Shown here one piece after another: positions 10,228-19,208 of a stretch of DNA of 64,000 nt. Below the pieces are notes generated by a model that did not search any database, had not been told where the DNA came from, and worked only from the letters and a program-made list of their open reading frames with translations. Both the position numbers and the translations under genes were made by a program. The number at the start of each line of letters is the position of its first letter. Position 1 is the first letter of the stretch. This DNA comes from Halobellus limi (lineage in GTDB: Archaea; Halobacteriota; Halobacteria; Halobacteriales; Haloferacaceae), in NCBI RefSeq assembly GCF_004799685.1, contig NZ_CP031311.1, positions 558,001 to 622,000 of the forward strand, written 5' to 3'.

Positions 10228-10599
10228 CTACTCCTCGACGGGGAACGTCTCGTGCAGCACGTCGTGTGCCTCGCCCAGTCCGTCGAGGACGCTCTCGCCC
10301 TGAGCGGTCAGCCTGTGCACCGCGCGCTCGGCGTCGCGGACGGCCACGAGCCGCCCGCGGACGTAGCCGTACTCCGGGTCGTCGGGATCGGTCGCGGCGA
10401 CTTCCGCCTCCAGATCCACGAGCGCCGCGTCGAGGTGTCGCTCGATCTCCGAGAGCGTCTCCGCGTTCGCGAGGGCTTCGATCGGGCCGTCGAGGTGGCC
10501 CTCCAGTTCCTTCTCTGCGTGCTCGCGCGCGTTCCGATCTTCGGTTCCGAGCACGTTCATCAGTCCGAGTCGTAGCGCTTCGATTTCGTGACAGCTCAT
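10228..10599 (-). CDS. DUF3209 family protein of cobalamin cluster
   Basis: A 123-residue acidic, mainly helical protein starting MSCHEIEALRLGLMNVLG, which I recognise as the haloarchaeal DUF3209 family. Its function is unknown. It has one cysteine and a CHE motif near the N-terminus, no signal peptide and no membrane segment. The start codon abuts the cbiX stop (10600-10602), so it is translated from the cbiT-cbiX transcript as its last gene. It faces the ferredoxin gene 9869-10204 convergently, with 23 bp between stops. Confidence 0.8.
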   Translation of the reverse strand: MSCHEIEALRLGLMNVLGTEDRNAREHAEKELEGHLDGPIEALANAETLSEIERHLDAALVDLEAEVAATDPDDPEYGYVRGRLVAVRDAERAVHRLTAQGESVLDGLGEAHDVLHETFPVEE

Positions 10600-11844
10600 T
10601 TATAACACTTGGTCGACGAGGTCCGAGACGATGCGGTCCCGATCGAGGTGGGACGAGACGATTCGCTCCGCGTCGCTCCCGTCGACGCCGCCGTACCAGA
10701 CGCCGTCGGGGTAGACGGCCACCATCGGGCCGTCGCCGCAGCGCCCGAGACACGACGAGCGCGTGATCCGGGCGTCGCAGGCGTCGGAGTCGCGCGCGGC
10801 CTGCCGCAGCCCTTCGAGGACGGCCGGCGCGCCGTCGGCGGCGCAGGTCTGATTGGTACACACCGCGACGTGTTTCGCCGGCGCGTCGTGCGCGTGCGGC
10901 TCTTCGTCGACGTCGTCGCGGTCGGCGTGTGACTCCCGGTGGGTCAGCGCCCGCAGCGTCGCTCTCGCGCCGCCGACGTCCTCCTCGTAGCCGTCGAGTT
11001 CGACCTTGTACTTACAGGTGTCACACGACATGTCCACGCTCTCGGTCCGAGCCTCCTGCCAGCGGTCGCCGAGGACGTCCAGCAGCCGGCTGTCCGTTCC
11101 GAGCGGATCGCCGGCGGCCGCGTCGACGTACGGGTACTCGTCGTCGAACTCGGCGGCTCCCTCGCGGATCCGCCCGGTGAGGACGCCGTCGCCGAGCATG
11201 TACGGGAGGACGACGACGGCGTCGGGCCGGTGTTTGGCGGCGGCGTCCAGCGCCTCCTCCAGCCGCGGCTCGGTGATCCCGACGAAGGCCGTCTCGACGC
11301 GGTCGAACTCCCGTCCCTCGTACAGGAGTCGGGCGAGTTTGTGCGCGTCGCTGTTGGCGTCCGGGTCGCTGGACCCCCGGGCGCAGAGCACGACCGCGAC
11401 GTCGTCGGTCTCGCGATCGACGCCCAACTCGCCTTCGACGGCCGCCGCCCGGTCGTCGAGCAGGTCGACGAGCGCGGGGTGGACGCCGAGGTGTGCACCG
11501 TTCCGGATCGCGACGCCGGGGTGTTCGTTCCGGGCCCGCTGGACCGCCAGCGGGACGTCGTTCTTGACGTGGCTCGCGGCGAAGAGCGACAGTTGCACGA
11601 CGCTGATTCGCGAGACCGTCGCCGCGAGGCCGGCGATCGCGTCGGGTATCGAGGGCTTCGCGAGTTCCAGGAAGCCCGCGTCGACCGGCAGCCCGAGCCG
11701 GCTCTCCAGGTCGGCCGCGAGCGTCCGGACCTGTTCGTTCGACTTCTCGCGGCGGGAGCCGTGACCCGCCAGCAACACGGCCTCGTCGTCGAGCACGCCG
11801 GTGTCGTCCCGCGCGTCCGGCGCGGCTCTGGCGTTCGCGGTCAT
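10600..11844 (-). CDS. cbiX: Sirohydrochlorin cobaltochelatase CbiX with Fe-S tail
   Basis: Inserts cobalt early in corrin synthesis. The ATG at 11844 overlaps the upstream stop (ATGA), giving 414 residues. Half one has an intact active site: GHGSR with H28, and SHVKNDVP with H92. Half two is degenerate (ARGSS with R156, YMLGDG at the second site), so the protein is a long CbiX using one site. Residues about 270-414 add CDTCKYK (C274, C277) and a thioredoxin-like ferredoxin domain (C329, C334, C365, C369) matching the stand-alone protein at 9869-10204. Iron-sulfur tails are known on some CbiX proteins. Confidence 0.9.
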   Translation of the reverse strand: MTANARAAPDARDDTGVLDDEAVLLAGHGSRREKSNEQVRTLAADLESRLGLPVDAGFLELAKPSIPDAIAGLAATVSRISVVQLSLFAASHVKNDVPLAVQRARNEHPGVAIRNGAHLGVHPALVDLLDDRAAAVEGELGVDRETDDVAVVLCARGSSDPDANSDAHKLARLLYEGREFDRVETAFVGITEPRLEEALDAAAKHRPDAVVVLPYMLGDGVLTGRIREGAAEFDDEYPYVDAAAGDPLGTDSRLLDVLGDRWQEARTESVDMSCDTCKYKVELDGYEEDVGGARATLRALTHRESHADRDDVDEEPHAHDAPAKHVAVCTNQTCAADGAPAVLEGLRQAARDSDACDARITRSSCLGRCGDGPMVAVYPDGVWYGGVDGSDAERIVSSHLDRDRIVSDLVDQVL

Positions 11845-12557
11845 CCGGAGAGCTCGCCCACCTCGCTCCCCGTGGCGCGCTCGACGCTCCGGCGGAGTTT
11901 CCCCCGCCGCGCCGCCGAGTACAGCCCCGAGTCGTCGCTGCCGCTGTACACCCACCGCGCGAAGGCCGCCGCGTCCGCGTCGTCTGCCAGCCCGAACCAG
12001 TGGCCGCCCGACGACGTCGCAGAGAGGTCGTCGGTCGGGACGTCCGGCTCGGCCGCATCGAGCAGCGAGCGAACGGTCCGGAGCAGGGCCTCGTCGTCGT
12101 GGACGAACGACACGCCGACCGACTCCGCGGACTCCCGGAAGCAGACGGTGCCGCAGGCCTCGAGGACCCCTCGAACGAGCTGCGGACGGTGGTCGGCGAA
12201 CGCGTCGAAGCGGTAGCCGCCGGGCTGACCGTCGATCGGCAGGCCGAGTGCGGCCGCCGCGCGCTCGGCCGGCGCGCCGAACACCTGTAACTCGTACTCG
12301 TCCTCGAAACGGACGATCGAGGCGTCGTGCGCCGACTCGCGGGCCGCGACCCGGTGGTCGTGGTCCGTCCGACCCGCCCCGGCGACCGCCGCCAGCGCGT
12401 CGGCCGCCGTCTCGTCCCCTGCTCGGACGGTCACGCGATCCCGTGTCAGTTCGCCGTCGCCGGCGACGCGCCCCCAGAAGTACGCCGTCGTCGTCGCCGC
12501 CGCGAGCAGGTCGTCCACGGGCTCCGGCGTCGTCGCCCCCCGCTCCGCCTCACTCAT
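11841..12557 (-). CDS. LAGLIDADG-like protein in cobalamin operon
   Basis: A 238-residue acidic protein of unknown role within the cbi operon. It shows two LAGLIDADG-like helices: WGRVAGDGEL (about 28-37), followed by a strand and helix, and LVRGVLEACGTV (about 127-138), followed by SFVHDDEALLRTVRSLL. The C-terminal ARWVYSGSDD...GLYSAARRGKLRR resembles the last helix and basic tail of such domains. The first repeat keeps the catalytic-position Asp; the second has Cys instead, so cleavage activity is unlikely. It overlaps cbiX by four bases and the ferredoxin start by eight. It may be a domesticated DNA-binding domain or an unrelated small-molecule binder. Confidence 0.6.
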   Translation of the reverse strand: MSEAERGATTPEPVDDLLAAATTTAYFWGRVAGDGELTRDRVTVRAGDETAADALAAVAGAGRTDHDHRVAARESAHDASIVRFEDEYELQVFGAPAERAAAALGLPIDGQPGGYRFDAFADHRPQLVRGVLEACGTVCFRESAESVGVSFVHDDEALLRTVRSLLDAAEPDVPTDDLSATSSGGHWFGLADDADAAAFARWVYSGSDDSGLYSAARRGKLRRSVERATGSEVGELSG

Positions 12558-12855
12558 CGTCGCCCTCCGTCAGCACGTCGATGGCGTCGACGGGACAGGC
12601 GCGGGCGGCCTGTTTCGCGTCCGCGAGTCGGTCGTCCGCGAACGAAACGAGGAGTTCGTCGCTCCCATCGGCTCCGCCGGTGGCAACGTCGCCTCCGTCG
12701 CCCCCTTCCCGTCCGCCGCCGGTCGCCAGGCGGTCCGACGTCTCGACGGTCGCCAACCCGTCCGACGCCTCGACGAACCGATCGTCGCGCACGAGGCAGG
12801 CGAAGACGCCCTCGCACGCCTCGCGGTCGAGGCGAACTCGGTACTCAGTAGTCAT
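12550..12855 (-). CDS. Three-cysteine ferredoxin
   Basis: A 101-residue single-cluster ferredoxin. Cysteines at 14 and 20 (CEGVFAC) and 87 (ACPVDAI) give the C-x5-C...CP pattern of [3Fe-4S] ferredoxins; no fourth cysteine is present. A Gly-rich low-complexity insert (about 44-65) separates the two halves. Its start overlaps the cbiH2 stop by 11 bases and its end overlaps the next gene by eight. It probably donates electrons to a corrin-ring step, the neighbouring CbiH being the best candidate partner. Confidence 0.8.
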   Translation of the reverse strand: MTTEYRVRLDREACEGVFACLVRDDRFVEASDGLATVETSDRLATGGGREGGDGGDVATGGADGSDELLVSFADDRLADAKQAARACPVDAIDVLTEGDDE

Positions 12856-13936
12856 ACTTGGACTCGTAGCCGCGGGGGGTCACCATCCGGTCGTCCCAGA
12901 CGTACGTCTCCTCGTTGCCGACGAGGATGGTCGTCGTCATGTCGACGAGGTCGGTCTCGCCGAGTTCTTCTAACTCCCCGAGCTCGACGATGTCGACTTC
13001 CTCGTCGTCGCGACCCGCGCCGTGGACGATCCCGACCGGCGTGTCCGGCTCGCGGTGCTCTAAGAGGATCTCACAGCACTTCCGGAAGTTCTCCCGGCGC
13101 TTGCGGCTCCAGGGGTTGTAGATCGCGATGGTGAACCCCTCCTTCGCGGCCGCGTGGAGCCGCGACTCGATGGTCGGCATCGACGTCAGGTGGTCCGACA
13201 GCGAGATGCTGACGGTGTCGTTCACGAGCGGCGCGCCCAGCCGCGCCCCGCAGGACTGGGCGGCCGGGACGCCGGGGACGACCTCGAAGTCGACCATACT
13301 CGCGGTCGCGCCCTTCGATTCGAGGATCTCAAGCGCCAGACCGGCCAGCGCGTAGACGTTCGGATCGCCGCTGCCGACGATGGCGACGTCGTTGCCGGCG
13401 AGCGCCCGGTCGATCGCCTCCTCCGTTCGCGAGACCTCGCCGCACATCGGCGTGTCGTACAGCTCCTCCGCGGACTCGGTGACCTCGTCGGGCAGGAGGT
13501 CGACGTACGTGGTGTAGCCGACGATGTGCTCGGCCTCCAGCAACGCCCCGCGAGCCCGCTGGGTCATCCCTTCCGGCTGTCCGGGACCCAGTCCGACCGC
13601 GACGAGTCGTCCGGGGTCGGCGTCGAAGTCGTCGACGGTGGACTCGACCTTCTCGTCGGTCTTCGATTGCTTCGACCCGCCGCACTTCGAACCGGACGAC
13701 GAGGAGGAAGCGCCACACGTCGAGGAGGTCTCATCGGCGCTTCCCGACGCTCCCGAGGCGCTCGCGACGCCGCCGTCGGTCGTCGCGTTCGCGGTCGACG
13801 CGCCGCACTTTGTCTCGCCGTCCGTATCCGTGCTACTCGCACCGCACTCGCTCTCGTTTCCGGTAGTCGTCCGCTCGCTGTCTGTCGCTGCCTGTTCGAC
13901 GTCCGTACTCGGCTCTGTGGTGTCGTCCGTGTTCAT
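12845..13936 (-). CDS. cbiH: Precorrin-3B C17-methyltransferase paralogue 2 (CbiH2)
   Basis: Ring-contraction methylase of 363 residues. The methylase core runs from about 108: VAVGLGPGQPEGMTQRA, GSGDPNVYALAG and VVPGVPAAQSCGARLGAP. Ahead of it lies an unusual 105-residue Ser/Thr/Gly-rich extension with four short cysteine motifs, C31 (ECGASS), C44 (KCGAST), C74 (TCGASS) and C85 (KCGGSK). These could bind an Fe-S cluster or metal; this is inference, prompted by the ferredoxin gene that overlaps its 3' end. cbiH1 lies two bases upstream. Which paralogue does the C17 reaction cannot be told from sequence. Confidence 0.88.
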   Translation of the reverse strand: MNTDDTTEPSTDVEQAATDSERTTTGNESECGASSTDTDGETKCGASTANATTDGGVASASGASGSADETSSTCGASSSSSGSKCGGSKQSKTDEKVESTVDDFDADPGRLVAVGLGPGQPEGMTQRARGALLEAEHIVGYTTYVDLLPDEVTESAEELYDTPMCGEVSRTEEAIDRALAGNDVAIVGSGDPNVYALAGLALEILESKGATASMVDFEVVPGVPAAQSCGARLGAPLVNDTVSISLSDHLTSMPTIESRLHAAAKEGFTIAIYNPWSRKRRENFRKCCEILLEHREPDTPVGIVHGAGRDDEEVDIVELGELEELGETDLVDMTTTILVGNEETYVWDDRMVTPRGYESKYDY

Positions 13937-13938
13937 TG

Positions 13939-14901
13939 TCAGAAGTCGTCGACGTCACGCCCGCCGCGCGGGGTGACGAGGTGTTTCTTATACCGGTTCT
14001 CCCAGACCGCCGTCTCGTGGTTGCCGATCAGGATCGAGGTGCCCATCCCGCCGACCTCCTCCTCGTACTCGTCGGCCTCGCCGAGGGTGGTGATCGTGTG
14101 GGTCTCGTCGTCGCGGTTCCGGCCCGCGTCGCCGCGGCCGGCGTCGTTGAAGATCCCCACCGGAACGTCGTCGGCGCGTTCCTCTCGGACGACGTCGATG
14201 GCGCGCTGGTAATCGCGCCAGCAGTTGTACAGCACGATCACGAACCCGCTGATCGCCGCGGCGCGGAGCTTCTCCTCGATCTCCTCCCACCCGCGCCACT
14301 TGTCCGACAGCGAGACGGTACAGAAGTCGTTCGACAGCGGCGCGCCGAGGTTCGCCGCGCCGCCGAGCGCCGCCGTCACGCCGGGGACGACCTCGATCGG
14401 GACGTCCTCGGCGTCCTCCGCTTCGGCCATCGTGAACAGCAGGTCGCTCTTGCCGTAGACGTTCGGATCGCCGCCGGAGACGTGGGCGACGTCCTGGCCC
14501 GCTCTGACGCGCTCGAACGCCTCGCGGGCCAGTTCGACCTGCCGCCCCATCGACGAGCGGACGAGCGTCTGCCGGGTCCCGCCGGGTCGTTCGAGGACGG
14601 TTCCTCCCTCCGCGTCTTCCGTTCTCCCGCCGTCGGCCGCGGTGTCTCCCGCGCCGGCCGCCTCGACTTCGGCGCTCTCCGGCGGGAGCGTCCCGTCGCG
14701 TCGGAGGAACTCCTGATAGAGGTTCGAGGCGATCACGCAGTCGGCGGTCGCGACGACGTCCTTCGCTCGCTGGGTCATCGCGTGGGGGAGCCCGGGTCCG
14801 ATCCCGACGACGTACAGCGTTCCCAGCGAGTCGTCGTCGTCGGTGCCCCCGCCCGAATCCGACGTCCCCGTGTCGGCGACGGCGTCGTCCGTCCCCGCCA
14901 T
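13939..14901 (-). CDS. cbiH: Precorrin-3B C17-methyltransferase paralogue 1 (CbiH1)
   Basis: SAM-dependent tetrapyrrole methylase of 320 residues, starting at the ATG at 14901, two bases after the cbiG stop. Motifs: VVGIGPGLPHAMTQRA near 32, SGGDPNVYGK near 145 and VVPGVTAALGGAANLGAP near 175. A low-complexity acidic insert lies at about 75-105. It shares with CbiH2 the SLSDxW/L and YNxWxR segments and a common C-terminal signature (GNxETxVWxxR, VTPRG), so the two are tandem duplicates. Duplicated CbiH could let one copy take a different methylation or support the ring-contraction step. Confidence 0.87.
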   Translation of the reverse strand: MAGTDDAVADTGTSDSGGGTDDDDSLGTLYVVGIGPGLPHAMTQRAKDVVATADCVIASNLYQEFLRRDGTLPPESAEVEAAGAGDTAADGGRTEDAEGGTVLERPGGTRQTLVRSSMGRQVELAREAFERVRAGQDVAHVSGGDPNVYGKSDLLFTMAEAEDAEDVPIEVVPGVTAALGGAANLGAPLSNDFCTVSLSDKWRGWEEIEEKLRAAAISGFVIVLYNCWRDYQRAIDVVREERADDVPVGIFNDAGRGDAGRNRDDETHTITTLGEADEYEEEVGGMGTSILIGNHETAVWENRYKKHLVTPRGGRDVDDF

Positions 14902-14903
14902 TC

Positions 14904-15890
14904 TCACTGCCCCACCGCCACGGTCACGGCGTCGTCGAAGCGTTCTTTCTCCCGCGCGAGGTCGTGCTCGCGACCGCCCGCGATGGCCGACGCCTCGGCG
15001 ATACCCGGCCAGCCGATGAGTTCCTTCGACCGCGAGGGCGAGGGGCCCTCGAACGCTTCGAGCGTCTCCCTCTCGAAGAGGACGACGCCGGAGCTGATCT
15101 CCTGGGCGGCCTCGTAGAGGCCCTCTTCTCCCTCTTTTCGGGTGCCGGTCGCGACGAAATCGACGTCGGAGAAGTCCAACCCCAGGTCGTCGAGGGCGGC
15201 CGCCCAGGCGTCGAGCACCTGCGACTTCTTCACCCCCGAGACCGTCCCGGTCCCGAGGACGACTCCCCGCTCCGAGTTCCGCTTGAGGACGGTGACGTCG
15301 TCGTCGACGAGGACGGCGCGGGGACCGTCGAGCCGCGCGACGGGACCGAGTTCCTCGTTCAGGACCGCGAGGTTCGTCGCGACCGTCGAGTCGCCGTTGA
15401 CGACGTGCGCGTCCAACGCCTTCGCCTTGCTCTCGACGCCCTGTTTCCCCGCGGCCTCGCTCGCGGTCGTCATCGCGGGTACCGCGCCCAACTGCGAGAG
15501 GTCGTGAGCCACCTGATTCGCGCCGTGGTGCCCGCCCGTGATCGGGATGGCCCACGTGAGTCCCTCGTCGACGACGACGATCGCGGGGTCGTCCCACTTG
15601 TCGTCGAGCAGCGGCGCGGTCTTCCGTATCGCGATGCCGGAGGCCATCAGCCCGACGAAGCAGTCGTACTTGCCCCAGTGCTCTTCGAAGACGTCGCCGT
15701 GGTACTCGATTATGTCCACGCGTTCGTAGCCGTCGCCGATGCCGGCCTTGACCTCCTCGGCGACGTCGAGTTTCCGCTCGAAGCTGACGATCGCGATCTC
15801 CTCGGCCACCTCCCCGTCGGAGTCCGGCGTGGAACAGTGGCCGCTCGATTCGCCCGCGTCCGTCTCGGTGTCGTTCGTTTCCGTGCTCAT
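14904..15890 (-). CDS. cbiG: Cobalt-precorrin-5A hydrolase CbiG
   Basis: Opens the delta-lactone and releases acetaldehyde in the anaerobic pathway. The ATG at 15890 (MSTETNDTETD) gives 328 residues. The N-terminal domain has GIAIRKTAPLLDDKW and the signature GLTWAIPITGGHHGANQVA; a middle domain has ATNLAVLNEELGPV; the C-terminal CbiG domain has GTGTVSGVKKSQVLDA and ATGTRKEGEEGL. All three usual regions are present. It lies 13 bp after cbiF and two bases before cbiH1, on one transcript. Confidence 0.93.
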   Translation of the reverse strand: MSTETNDTETDAGESSGHCSTPDSDGEVAEEIAIVSFERKLDVAEEVKAGIGDGYERVDIIEYHGDVFEEHWGKYDCFVGLMASGIAIRKTAPLLDDKWDDPAIVVVDEGLTWAIPITGGHHGANQVAHDLSQLGAVPAMTTASEAAGKQGVESKAKALDAHVVNGDSTVATNLAVLNEELGPVARLDGPRAVLVDDDVTVLKRNSERGVVLGTGTVSGVKKSQVLDAWAAALDDLGLDFSDVDFVATGTRKEGEEGLYEAAQEISSGVVLFERETLEAFEGPSPSRSKELIGWPGIAEASAIAGGREHDLAREKERFDDAVTVAVGQ

Positions 15891-15903
15891 AGTTCGGTCG
15901 TCG

Positions 15904-16770
15904 TCAGTCGTCGGCCTCGCTCTCGGTTCCGCCTCGGTTCGCCCAGCCGTCGTACAGGTACGAGCGCTCGTAGCCCGCCTTCCGCGCGGCGTCGCCGATG
16001 ACGACCATCGCGGAGGCGCGGTAGCCCGCCTCTTCCAGCCGCTCGCCGATCGTCCCGATCGTGCCCTCGATGACCTCCTCGTCCGGCCACGACGCGTGGT
16101 AGACGACGGCGACCGGCGTGTCGGGGTCGTGGCCATCTTCGAGGAGCCGGTCCATCGTCTCGCCGACCGCGTGGGTCCCGAGGTAGACGCAGGTCGTCAC
16201 GTCGCCCATCCCGACGAACTCGCCGATGTGGTCGTCCTCGGGGTCGAGCGTCTTCCCCTGCGGACGCGTGAACGCGACGTGGTTCGAGACGCCGTTCAGC
16301 GTGAGTTGCGTTCGGAGCGTCGCGCTGGCCGCGAACGCGGAGGTCACGCCCGGAACGATGTAGGTGGGAACGCCCTCGTGCTCCAGCGCGTCCATCTGCT
16401 CTACGGCCGCCCCGTAGACCGCGGGATCGCCGCTGTGGAGACGGACGACGTCGCGTCCCGACTCGTGGGCGTCTCGCATCAGCGGTACGAGTTCCTCCAG
16501 GTCCTTGCCGATGCTCGACACCTGCTCCGCGTCCGCGCAGTACTCCGCGAGGAGTTCGCTGTTGACCAGCGACCCGGCGTGAACCACGAGGTCCGCAGAC
16601 TCGACGAGTTCCCTTCCGGTGACGGTGAGAAGCCCCGGGTCGCCCGGGCCGGCCCCGATGAAGGGGATTCCCCCCTGCACCTCGCCGGCGGTCTGCTCCT
16701 CGATTCTAGGGTCGCGTTCGTTCGCTCGCGCGGCCGACTCCGCGTCGATGGCCTCCTGCGGGTCGGTCAT
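15904..16770 (-). CDS. cbiF: Cobalt-precorrin-4 C11-methyltransferase CbiF
   Basis: A 288-residue methylase adding the C11 methyl group. After a 32-residue leader, the core begins with PFIGAGPGDPGLLTVTGREL, the wording typical of CbiF/CobM, then RLHSGDPAVYGA and YIVPGVTSAFAASA. The start overlaps the cbiL stop (ATGA-type). The family assignment is firm because CbiF and CobM share the distinctive HAGSLVN segment seen near residue 62. Confidence 0.94.
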   Translation of the reverse strand: MTDPQEAIDAESAARANERDPRIEEQTAGEVQGGIPFIGAGPGDPGLLTVTGRELVESADLVVHAGSLVNSELLAEYCADAEQVSSIGKDLEELVPLMRDAHESGRDVVRLHSGDPAVYGAAVEQMDALEHEGVPTYIVPGVTSAFAASATLRTQLTLNGVSNHVAFTRPQGKTLDPEDDHIGEFVGMGDVTTCVYLGTHAVGETMDRLLEDGHDPDTPVAVVYHASWPDEEVIEGTIGTIGERLEEAGYRASAMVVIGDAARKAGYERSYLYDGWANRGGTESEADD

Positions 16771-17630
16771 CGCGACGGACCCTCCCGGACCGCGTCGCCG
16801 CAGGCCTCGCCCTCCGCGCGCTCGACTGACGCGATGTCGGAGGCGGTCGCAGCGTCCGCGGTCGACTCCGCTCCCCAGTCGGTCTGTGCCGTCGGCTCCA
16901 CCCCTCCGTCGGTGTGTGCCGCCGGCTCGGACTCGGTCTCCGCCCCGTCGTCGAACGCCGCGGTCGCCGGCCGCGGATCCAGTCCGCGCTTCTCCGCGTA
17001 CGCGAGGGTGTAGTAGTCGCGGTCGGCGAGGGCCTCGGGGTCGTCGGTCACGACGGTCTCGCCCTGCTGCATGTACAGCCGACGACCGTACACGACGTCG
17101 TAGCCGGCGTCGACGAGTCCCTCGTGGGTCACGGGCACGTCGGTGACCTTGAACAGGACCATCCGGTCCGGACCGGTGGGGGACGCCCCGCGGGCGGCCT
17201 CGCGGAGCGCGATACTCGACCCCGAGGCGATCTCGACGCCGAGGGCGGTCGTGAAGGCCGTCACGGCGCTCACGCCGGGCACGACCTCGACGCCGACGTC
17301 CGGGTGGAACGCCGCGAGCGTCCGCCGCAGGTGGCCGAACGTCGAGTAGACGTTCGGATCGCCCAGCGTGACGAACGCCGCGGTGCCGTCGCGGGCGCGC
17401 GGCGCGATCTCCGCGGCGGCGGCCTTCCAGGCGCGCCGGAGCTCCTCCTCGTCGCGGGTCATCGGGAAGTCGACGTCGCCGATCCGCGCCTCCGGAACGT
17501 GCTCGGTCGCCACGGAACGAGAGAGGCGCCCGGGCGAGTACACGACGTCCGCCTCTTCGAGGACGCGACGGCCGCGCACGGTCACGAGGTCGGCGTCGCC
17601 GGGGCCGAGTCCGACGCCGTACAGGGTCAT
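16767..17630 (-). CDS. cbiL: Cobalt-factor II / precorrin-2 C20-methyltransferase CbiL
   Basis: A 287-residue methylase for the C20 position, the first methylation after sirohydrochlorin. It begins at once with YGVGLGPGDADLVTVRG, then FVTLGDPNVYSTFG and VVPGVSAVTAFTTAL. The C-terminal 65 residues are an acidic tail with imperfect repeats around TDGGVEPTAQTDWGAEST and look non-catalytic. The start overlaps cbiT by four bases. Confidence 0.93.
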   Translation of the reverse strand: MTLYGVGLGPGDADLVTVRGRRVLEEADVVYSPGRLSRSVATEHVPEARIGDVDFPMTRDEEELRRAWKAAAAEIAPRARDGTAAFVTLGDPNVYSTFGHLRRTLAAFHPDVGVEVVPGVSAVTAFTTALGVEIASGSSIALREAARGASPTGPDRMVLFKVTDVPVTHEGLVDAGYDVVYGRRLYMQQGETVVTDDPEALADRDYYTLAYAEKRGLDPRPATAAFDDGAETESEPAAHTDGGVEPTAQTDWGAESTADAATASDIASVERAEGEACGDAVREGPSR

Positions 17631-18247
17631 CGCCGTCCCCCGTCGACGCCGCGCGATGGCGACCGCCGCGAATCGGTGGGGCGCTCCCCGCCGTCGGCCG
17701 CGACCTCCCCGGCCCCGCCGACGAGCATATACACCGGGTTCTGGGAGTCGAAACTCGTCGCCCCGGCGAGTTCGTAGCCGTGGCTCACCTGGAACTGGAC
17801 GACCTCCTCAAGGAGGTCGCGCTCCCGGAAGGCCTCGGTGGCCGCCCCGGCGACCTCCAGCCGCGAGACGTTCATCACGACGCGGTCGATTCGGTGCGCG
17901 GCCGCGTGGTCGAGGACGGCCTCGTAGTTCCGGCTGCCGCCGAGGAACAGGGCGTCGGCGTCCGTCGGCAGGCCTTCCGGCGCCTCGGACTCGCGGAGTT
18001 CGACGTTCCCGCCCGCATCGTTGGCGGCGAGGTTCTTTCTGGTCGTTTCGAGTCGGTTCGGCTTCCGTTCCAGCGCGGTGACCCGCCCGGCGCGCCGCGC
18101 GGCCTCGACGGTGACCGCGCCGGTGCAGGAACCGACCTCGACGAAGTGATCGGTCGGTTCGAGAGCGAGTTTACCGAGAAGTACCGCCCGAACCTCCGGC
18201 TTCGTCGGACCGGCCTTCGCGTCGTGCGGGAGCGAGACGTGCGCCAT
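17627..18247 (-). CDS. cbiT: Cobalt-precorrin-6B C15-methyltransferase CbiT
   Basis: A 206-residue Rossmann-fold methylase, decarboxylating and methylating C15. The ATG at 18247 (MAHVSLPHDAKAGPTKPEVRA) is preferred over an upstream TTG, because the family starts with the HD..K.PTK.EVRA segment. SAM motif: FVEVGSCTGAVTVEAA near 35-50; later LFLGGSRNYEAVL. It leads the long cbi operon. Upstream are a TTTTAC element at a leaderless distance and the TAAAACAA/TTGTTTTA palindrome. The final 35 residues are a charged tail. Confidence 0.93.
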   Translation of the reverse strand: MAHVSLPHDAKAGPTKPEVRAVLLGKLALEPTDHFVEVGSCTGAVTVEAARRAGRVTALERKPNRLETTRKNLAANDAGGNVELRESEAPEGLPTDADALFLGGSRNYEAVLDHAAAHRIDRVVMNVSRLEVAGAATEAFRERDLLEEVVQFQVSHGYELAGATSFDSQNPVYMLVGGAGEVAADGGERPTDSRRSPSRGVDGGRR

Positions 18248-18272
18248 CGACGAATACAACTGTCGTAGGCCG

Positions 18273-18294
18273 TAAAACAATTTTGGTTGTTTTA
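18273..18294. promoter_or_regulatory. Palindrome in cbiT promoter
   Basis: TAAAACAA-N6-TTGTTTTA is a perfect 8-bp-arm palindrome 26-47 bp upstream of the cbiT start. It overlaps the expected TATA/BRE position of the leftward promoter and lies about 100 bp from the divergent regulator start at 18396. A dimeric repressor site is the natural reading; which protein binds is inferred. Confidence 0.6.
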
Positions 18295-18395: not shown

Positions 18396-19208
18396 ATGTC
18401 GAGGAACGCCGAGGACGCCGAGGAGTTCGGCGTTCTCCAGAGTAAACGGAACGCGACCCGCTATCAGATCCTCGTGCAGATCGCCGAGCGGCAACCGGCG
18501 GTCAACCAGCAGGAGATCGCCGACGCGATCGGCATCACCGCCCAGGCGGTCAGCGACTACCTCCAGGACCTCGTCGAACACGGCTACGTCAACAAGCACG
18601 GCCGCGGTCGCTACGAGGTGACCAAGGAGGGCGTCGACTGGCTGATCACCCAGACCGACGAACTCCGCGGGTTCGTCCGGCACGTCTCCGAGGACGTCAT
18701 CGGCCAGGTCGAGATCGAGACGGCGATCGCGACGACGGAGATCGAGGAGGGAGAGACCGTCTCGCTGACGATGCGCGACGGCGTCCTCCGGGCGATGGCC
18801 GGCGACACCGGGAGCGCGACCGCGGTCGCGGTGACCGACGCGGCGGCGGGCCGGGACGTCGGGATCACGAACGTCGAGGGCGTCGTCGACTACGAGCTGG
18901 GGACCGTGACGATCGTCTCGGTTCCGCAGGTCCAGAACGGGGGGAGTTCGGCGGTGGATCCCGATCGACTCTCGAAGCTGGCCGCCGACCACGACCTGAT
19001 CGCCGTCGGGGGCGCGGAAGCCGTCGTCGCGGCCGACGCGGCGGGGCTCGACCCGGACGTCCGCTTCGGCAGCAGCGCCGCCGTCCAGGAGGCGGCCACG
19101 AAGGGGCTCGACACACTCCTGTTGGTCTCGACCGACCTCCTCTCGGCGCACACCGACAAACTCCGAGAGCAGAACCTCAGCTACGAGGTCGTCGACGCAG
19201 CCGCGTGA
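18396..19208 (+). CDS. Winged-helix regulator, candidate cobalamin-locus regulator
   Basis: A 270-residue protein whose first 95 residues form a MarR/ArsR-like winged helix: LQSKRNATRYQILVQIAERQ, a recognition helix around GITAQAVSDYLQDLVEHGYV and the wing HGRGRYEVT. The remaining 170 residues are an uncharacterised regulatory domain with alternating strands and helices, ending in a Rossmann-like region (DHDLIAVGGAEAVVAADAAGL). No metal-binding cysteine cluster is evident. It is transcribed away from the cbi operon over a 148-bp gap holding a palindrome, the classic layout of a local regulator. It may instead be a conserved housekeeping regulator that happens to adjoin the cluster. Confidence 0.75.
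   Translation: MSRNAEDAEEFGVLQSKRNATRYQILVQIAERQPAVNQQEIADAIGITAQAVSDYLQDLVEHGYVNKHGRGRYEVTKEGVDWLITQTDELRGFVRHVSEDVIGQVEIETAIATTEIEEGETVSLTMRDGVLRAMAGDTGSATAVAVTDAAAGRDVGITNVEGVVDYELGTVTIVSVPQVQNGGSSAVDPDRLSKLAADHDLIAVGGAEAVVAADAAGLDPDVRFGSSAAVQEAATKGLDTLLLVSTDLLSAHTDKLREQNLSYEVVDAAA

Follow-up and report, generated by a model that had tools for sequence, protein, structure and literature searches.

Introduction

The LAGLIDADG superfamily is known for proteins that cut or bind nucleic acids. Two described groups come close to the protein discussed here. Archaeal homing endonucleases of the LAGLIDADG_3 family (PF14528), either free-standing or housed in inteins, combine a double-repeat fold with LAGLIDADG helices and a basic C-terminal segment. 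In WhiA (DUF199, PDB 3hyi), a bacterial transcription factor, a nuclease-dead LAGLIDADG fold has been kept by the host.

The cobalt-early route of B12 synthesis is normally anaerobic. Among the proteins connected with cobalt, CobW is a GTPase serving CobN. Supplying cobalt to a chelatase is a role suggested both for the Co(II) chaperone CobW and for CbiX-L; CbiX-L is known to carry an Fe-S and a His-rich extension, and the His-rich part has been suggested as a store or source of cobalt (PMC7689651). In the cobalamin cluster of Haloferax volcanii, HVO_B0055 is listed as 'function unassigned', with neither fold nor function given (PMC8305020).

Here we describe a 238-aa LAGLIDADG-fold protein, hereafter LAG (the gene and its product), encoded in a 64,000-nt stretch of Halobellus limi DNA (the window). 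We assign LAG to the HVO_B0055 family by its position in the cluster (PMC8305020). Homologues in NCBI records are named only 'cobalamin biosynthesis protein', and our literature search found no paper linking LAGLIDADG to haloarchaeal cobalamin genes, in agreement with the initial annotation, which had regarded such a role as not previously described.

Results and Discussion

LAG lies in an operon with the order cbiT-cbiL-cbiF-cbiG-cbiH1-cbiH2-ferredoxin-LAG-cbiX-DUF3209 (Table 1). It overlaps the ferredoxin gene, probably of the HVO_B0056 type, by 8 nt, and its stop shares an ATGA with the cbiX start, so that both overlaps claimed from the first inspection are seen in the sequence. As listed, cbiT spans 17627-18280 with a TTG start inside the palindromic operator; translation more likely begins at the ATG at 18247, in line with the annotation of the Haladaptatus homologue. 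No Rfam element was found in window positions 1-24000, and hence no known B12 riboswitch in that part.

Table 1. Features of the cobalamin locus, in window coordinates
Feature	Position	Strand	Details
LAG (HVO_B0055 family), main finding	11841..12557	-	ORF, 238 aa, intact, ATG start
Repeat-1 LAGLIDADG-like helix, residues 22-34 (TTTAYFWGRVAGD)	12456..12494	-	model and alignment
His77, repeat-1 loop joining strands 3 and 4	12327..12329	-	invariant, 77/77 sequences
Repeat-2 LAGLIDADG-like helix, residues 118-135	12153..12206	-	model and alignment
Cys139, first strand of repeat 2	12141..12143	-	invariant, 77/77 sequences
His153, end of strand 2 in repeat 2	12099..12101	-	72/77 sequences
Basic C-terminal helix, residues 215-229	11871..11915	-	R217 and K220 invariant; model and alignment
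Fer4_15 ferredoxin gene	12550..12855	-	Pfam E 7.1e-16
cbiX, sirohydrochlorin cobaltochelatase	10600..11844	-	Pfam CbiX E 2.1e-49
[2Fe-2S] thioredoxin-like ferredoxin tail of CbiX	10600..10854	-	Pfam 3.6e-6
DUF3209 protein gene	10228..10599	-	Pfam E 2.6e-53
cbiT, cbiL, cbiF, cbiG, cbiH1, cbiH2 (remainder of operon)	12845..18247	-	
Palindromic operator TAAAACAA-CCAAAA-TTGTTTTA, 22 bp	18273..18294	-	25 nt upstream of likely cbiT ATG (18247)

The AlphaFold2 model of LAG (pLDDT 83.4, pTM 0.83) adopts the complete two-repeat topology of the superfamily, built from two alpha-beta-beta-alpha-beta-beta-alpha repeats that both begin with a LAGLIDADG-type helix. Repeat 1 is modelled as helix 22-34, strands 36-38 and 41-46, helix 49-59, strands 68-74 and 82-93 and helix 96-104; repeat 2 as helix 118-135, strands 136-141 and 146-153, helix 156-167, strand 186-190 and helix 196-204. 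Both LAGLIDADG helices recognized in the initial annotation appear in the predicted structure at the places and in the order given there, together with the basic C-terminal helix it had described. The structural comparison that it had named as a check, and as a way to refute it, left the claim standing, with LAGLIDADG proteins making up 50/50 of the Foldseek matches listed against the PDB. Best among these are I-Tsp061I (6.4e-6), the TliVMA intein, the bI3 maturase (rank 4), WhiA (6.6e-5) and I-DmoI; endonucleases and inteins also make up most of the named structure matches from a viral library.

Profile comparisons point in the same direction. Pfam LAGLIDADG_3 matches 17/38 LAG family members (best E 2.1e-5), with no match to the window protein itself and ten members scored singly at <=22.3 bits for a cut-off of 22.5. 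Beyond its own family, the LAG profile searched against 393 genomes reaches an intein endonuclease in a haloarchaeal MCM gene (4.8e-5) as well as a LAGLIDADG ORF that stands alone (2.9e-5), and hhalign aligns it with four endonucleases over 144 columns (92.9%, E 3.7e-7). A sequence search of the PDB with LAG returned nothing real, and no NCBIfam model matches; matches to TrbL_3 (E 0.04) and to PHROG families were discarded as chance level. On the strength of the model and these comparisons, a double-repeat LAGLIDADG fold is near certain. The MCM helicase gene of the same genome, which lies outside the window (L094, L096; L- and G-numbers label loci and genomes of our survey), carries inteins with LAGLIDADG_3 endonuclease domains, and these are possibly related to the source of LAG.

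The catalytic positions were compared across 63 LAG representatives sharing <90% identity and in a second set of 77 sequences. The window protein has D34 in repeat 1 and C135 in repeat 2, the Asp and Cys that had been read from the sequence at the outset. Among the 63 representatives, position 34 is occupied by Asp (39), Ser (15), Asn (4), Ala (3) or Gly (2), and position 135 by Cys (61), Ala (1) or Thr (1). An endonuclease would have an acid ending each LAGLIDADG helix; in repeat 2 it is replaced by Cys, Ala or Thr in 63/63 sequences, and the repeat-1 Asp is present in only 39/63. Judged from these residues, LAG is almost certainly not a nuclease, which strengthens the earlier suggestion of a probably non-cutting protein, and an active endonuclease was rejected. 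Besides having lost the catalytic acids, LAG differs from the LAGLIDADG_3 endonucleases in lying outside inteins and introns, as a fixed gene of a metabolic operon.

Repeat 2 is nonetheless strongly constrained despite the missing acid, with R129, G130, E133, G136, C139, G148 and S150 invariant (n=63). In the larger set, Cys135 is retained in 75/77 sequences, the two others having Ala or Thr. By analogy with I-CreI, residue 135 would stand where the acid that binds metal is expected, and residue 139 would face the groove.

Occurrence of LAG follows that of the B12 pathway. Raw counts over 292 Halobacteria genomes, with kinship ignored, give LAG with CbiG in 146, CbiG alone in 5, a weak LAG match alone in 1 and neither in 140. 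LAG is thus found in 146/151 CbiG-positive genomes versus <=1/141 others, and a family match of any kind in 147/292 genomes of the class. The one match in a CbiG-less genome (G216, 5e-4) may be an intein. LAG is a real, conserved haloarchaeal family and is tied by co-distribution to de novo B12 synthesis, which bears out the earlier proposal of its recruitment into cobalamin synthesis. Our confidence in fold, dead catalytic site and this tie, taken jointly, is very high.

Two loci depart from the usual arrangement. In G021, a divergent LAG (L044, 7826-8422) lies outside the cob cluster, between two cation-diffusion-facilitator-like genes and beside a rhodanese-like gene. In G014 (L045, L103), the cluster is split on one contig, with LAG, tailed CbiX and DUF3209 in one part and cbiT, L, F, G and a ferredoxin gene in the other.

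The gene-neighbourhood survey suggested by the initial annotation revealed a fixed partner. In 103/104 loci, the next gene downstream of LAG encodes a ferredoxin-tailed CbiX. Wherever both genes are present (103/103 loci, comprising 76 distinct LAG sequences, with some genomes counted twice), cbiX follows immediately downstream on the same strand and encodes a C-terminal thioredoxin-like [2Fe-2S] ferredoxin domain. In a CbiX tree, the tailed proteins form one group (96/97 support), although long branches leave deeper placement unsure.

The five LAG-less clusters (G001, G007, G129, G269 and G052) all contain a CbiX with a very His-rich end. They are few and not independent: G001 and G007 come from a single genus, and in G269 the CbiX clusters with the CbiX proteins of those two. 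G001, G007, G129 and G269 are also without the ferredoxin gene and DUF3209, and retain cbiT, L, F, G, H1, H2 and X. In G052, the ferredoxin, the tailed CbiX and DUF3209 are present, and the slot of LAG is taken exactly by a His-rich CbiX that the tree places outside the tailed group. Two kinds of haloarchaeal CbiX are seen in the window and at L100, L101, L102, L116 and L117, a ferredoxin-tailed one with LAG and a His-rich one without it, and G052 holds both. This swap in G052 suggests related functions for LAG and the His-rich tail.

In Thermus and Leptospira, too, DUF3209 comes after a tailed CbiX, with no LAG in the region shown, so LAG is not an obligate companion of the CbiX tail. The DUF3209 protein (window 10228-10599; L119, L120) is itself predicted to be a helical bundle (pLDDT 96.4) with invariant Cys3, His27, His55, His112 and His116, and in the PDB it significantly matches only Thermus TTHB059 (2ehw).

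Absence of LAG is partly accompanied by absence of a haem-copper oxidase. The small genomes of G001 and G007 led us to predict that they are anaerobes, and a terminal oxidase was looked for. Only 3/97 genomes lack COX1, namely G001, G007 and one CbiG-less genome. COX1 is also absent from the CbiG-positive G129, which belongs to another family than G001 and G007. A haem-copper oxidase is accordingly missing in 3/5 LAG-less CbiG genomes (G001, L101; G007, L102; G129, L116), and in these three the ferredoxin, LAG, DUF3209 and the CbiX tail are all missing together. Exceptions to the pattern are G269, where COX1 is present and the set is missing, and G052. Thermus and Leptospira are aerobes. Taken together, ferredoxin, LAG, tailed CbiX and DUF3209 seem to form a set that adapts the cobalt-early route to air, LAG being its haloarchaeal addition; this view draws on few independent events.

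The computed fold, the loss of catalytic acids, the occurrence alongside de novo synthesis and the constant position beside ferredoxin-tailed CbiX frame our preferred reading, in which LAG would be a domesticated, nuclease-dead protein that has become a permanent accessory when haloarchaea insert cobalt early in making B12. We advance it tentatively, as possible rather than probable; that LAG acts at the CbiX cobalt-insertion step is our best inference, put forward with the same reserve. LAG would be co-translated with CbiX and may bind CbiX, the CbiX substrate or Co(II). It would then give tailed CbiX the service that the other type of CbiX gets from its long His-rich C-terminus, namely holding or handing over cobalt, and the set of ferredoxin, LAG, tailed CbiX and DUF3209 might let oxygen-respiring haloarchaea run the cobalt-early pathway. 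This would be the kind of cobalt supply proposed for the His-rich end of CbiX-L and for CobW, to neither of which LAG is related in sequence or fold.

A further guess concerns the old catalytic metal site, where Cys135 and Cys139 with His77, and perhaps His153, may now form a putative metal or ligand site. Conversion of the endonuclease metal site into a Cys/His site for cobalt (or for an Fe-S cluster or a corrinoid) in the service of CbiX is a speculation that we consider rather unlikely. Counting against a cobalt role are the G021 LAG off the cob cluster, the replacement of Cys135 by Ala or Thr in two members and the missing His153 in five.

A different role is hinted at by the operator upstream of cbiT. 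No such site is expected in 64 kb of shuffled sequence at <=4 mismatches, and the best site near cbiT was found in 46/46 clusters with 0-4 mismatches and the consensus TAnnnCAA-N6-TTGnnnTA. Weaker copies lie near other genes in some loci. The conserved cbiT operator possibly marks a haloarchaeal B12 regulon. LAGLIDADG proteins bind pseudo-palindromes of ~20 bp, and LAG could be a DNA-binding cob regulator, a one-domain analogue of WhiA whose saddle reads the strong 22-bp palindrome. WhiA offers a precedent (PMC11701221), and a second regulator of cob genes has been inferred in Halobacterium (PMC3794607).

We nevertheless judge such a regulator unlikely. The operator is retained upstream of cbiT in 5/5 LAG-less clusters, which weakens this reading, as a LAG that were its sole reader would predict its loss there. 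No operator-like site was found in the G021 LAG locus, and in the window a winged-helix regulator gene (18396-19208), found in 16 of the other loci examined, adjoins the operator and diverges from it. Where repeat 2 is most conserved, its residues are small ones and Cys, not basic, and LAG (pI 4.58) is as acidic as its enzyme neighbours. Unlike WhiA, LAG is without an HTH domain, since no Pfam HTH match follows the LAGLIDADG part and the protein ends in one basic helix (215-229); it also occurs in other organisms and another genome context, and displays no sign of DNA targets. The initial annotation had proposed a DNA- or ligand-binding protein. With the operator kept without LAG, and LAG co-varying with the type of CbiX, its DNA-binding half is weakened as far as a cob regulator is concerned, while binding of a ligand or partner at CbiX would fit better.

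LAG might instead be a structural or assembly partner that binds no metal, either holding a complex of CbiX, ferredoxin and DUF3209 together or coupling translation of the operon via its RNA. Fixed gene order and overlapping genes are consistent with this, RNA splicing is the task of some LAGLIDADG proteins, and the fourth-ranked Foldseek match is the bI3 maturase. We find this doubtful, as the invariant His77 and Cys139 and the near-invariant Cys135 suggest a chemical site, and the unlinked LAG of G021 speaks against a role on operon RNA.

That LAG fills a missing pathway step, CbiD methylation or CbiJ reduction, appears improbable. To our knowledge, no LAGLIDADG protein binds SAM or NAD(P)H. 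The CbiD and CbiJ families are absent from 97/97 haloarchaeal genomes searched, in agreement with PMC6719526 and with PMC8305020, where HVO_B0055 is one of four unassigned candidates for the missing steps. LAG matches none of the Pfam and NCBIfam models of CbiD and CbiJ. G001, G007, G129 and G269 keep the rest of the pathway without LAG, which makes LAG an unlikely CbiD or CbiJ, and both families are absent in G001 and G007 too. The second CbiH copy, present in all four of these genomes, is a better candidate for CbiD. The joint absence of ferredoxin, LAG and DUF3209 from the oxidase-less, CbiG-positive G001, G007 and G129 likewise argues that none of the three is the missing CbiD or CbiJ. Despite its homology to intein endonucleases, a working or recently dead mobile endonuclease present in the operon by chance is extremely improbable for LAG, a single-copy gene that lies in no intron, intein or similar element, occupies the same slot in 103/104 loci, is kept across families and is strongly constrained without catalytic acids.

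Conclusions

LAG is a near-universal member of a vitamin cluster, class-wide in haloarchaea, that has no catalytic acids. A fold can now be given to one of the four haloarchaeal cobalamin cluster genes described as unassigned (PMC8305020). LAG as an accessory of cobalt insertion would offer a pointer to how oxygen-respiring archaea insert cobalt in the cobalt-early route, and, if its old metal site has indeed become a Cys/His site that serves CbiX, LAG would possibly be the first LAGLIDADG protein working in metabolism and not on nucleic acid.
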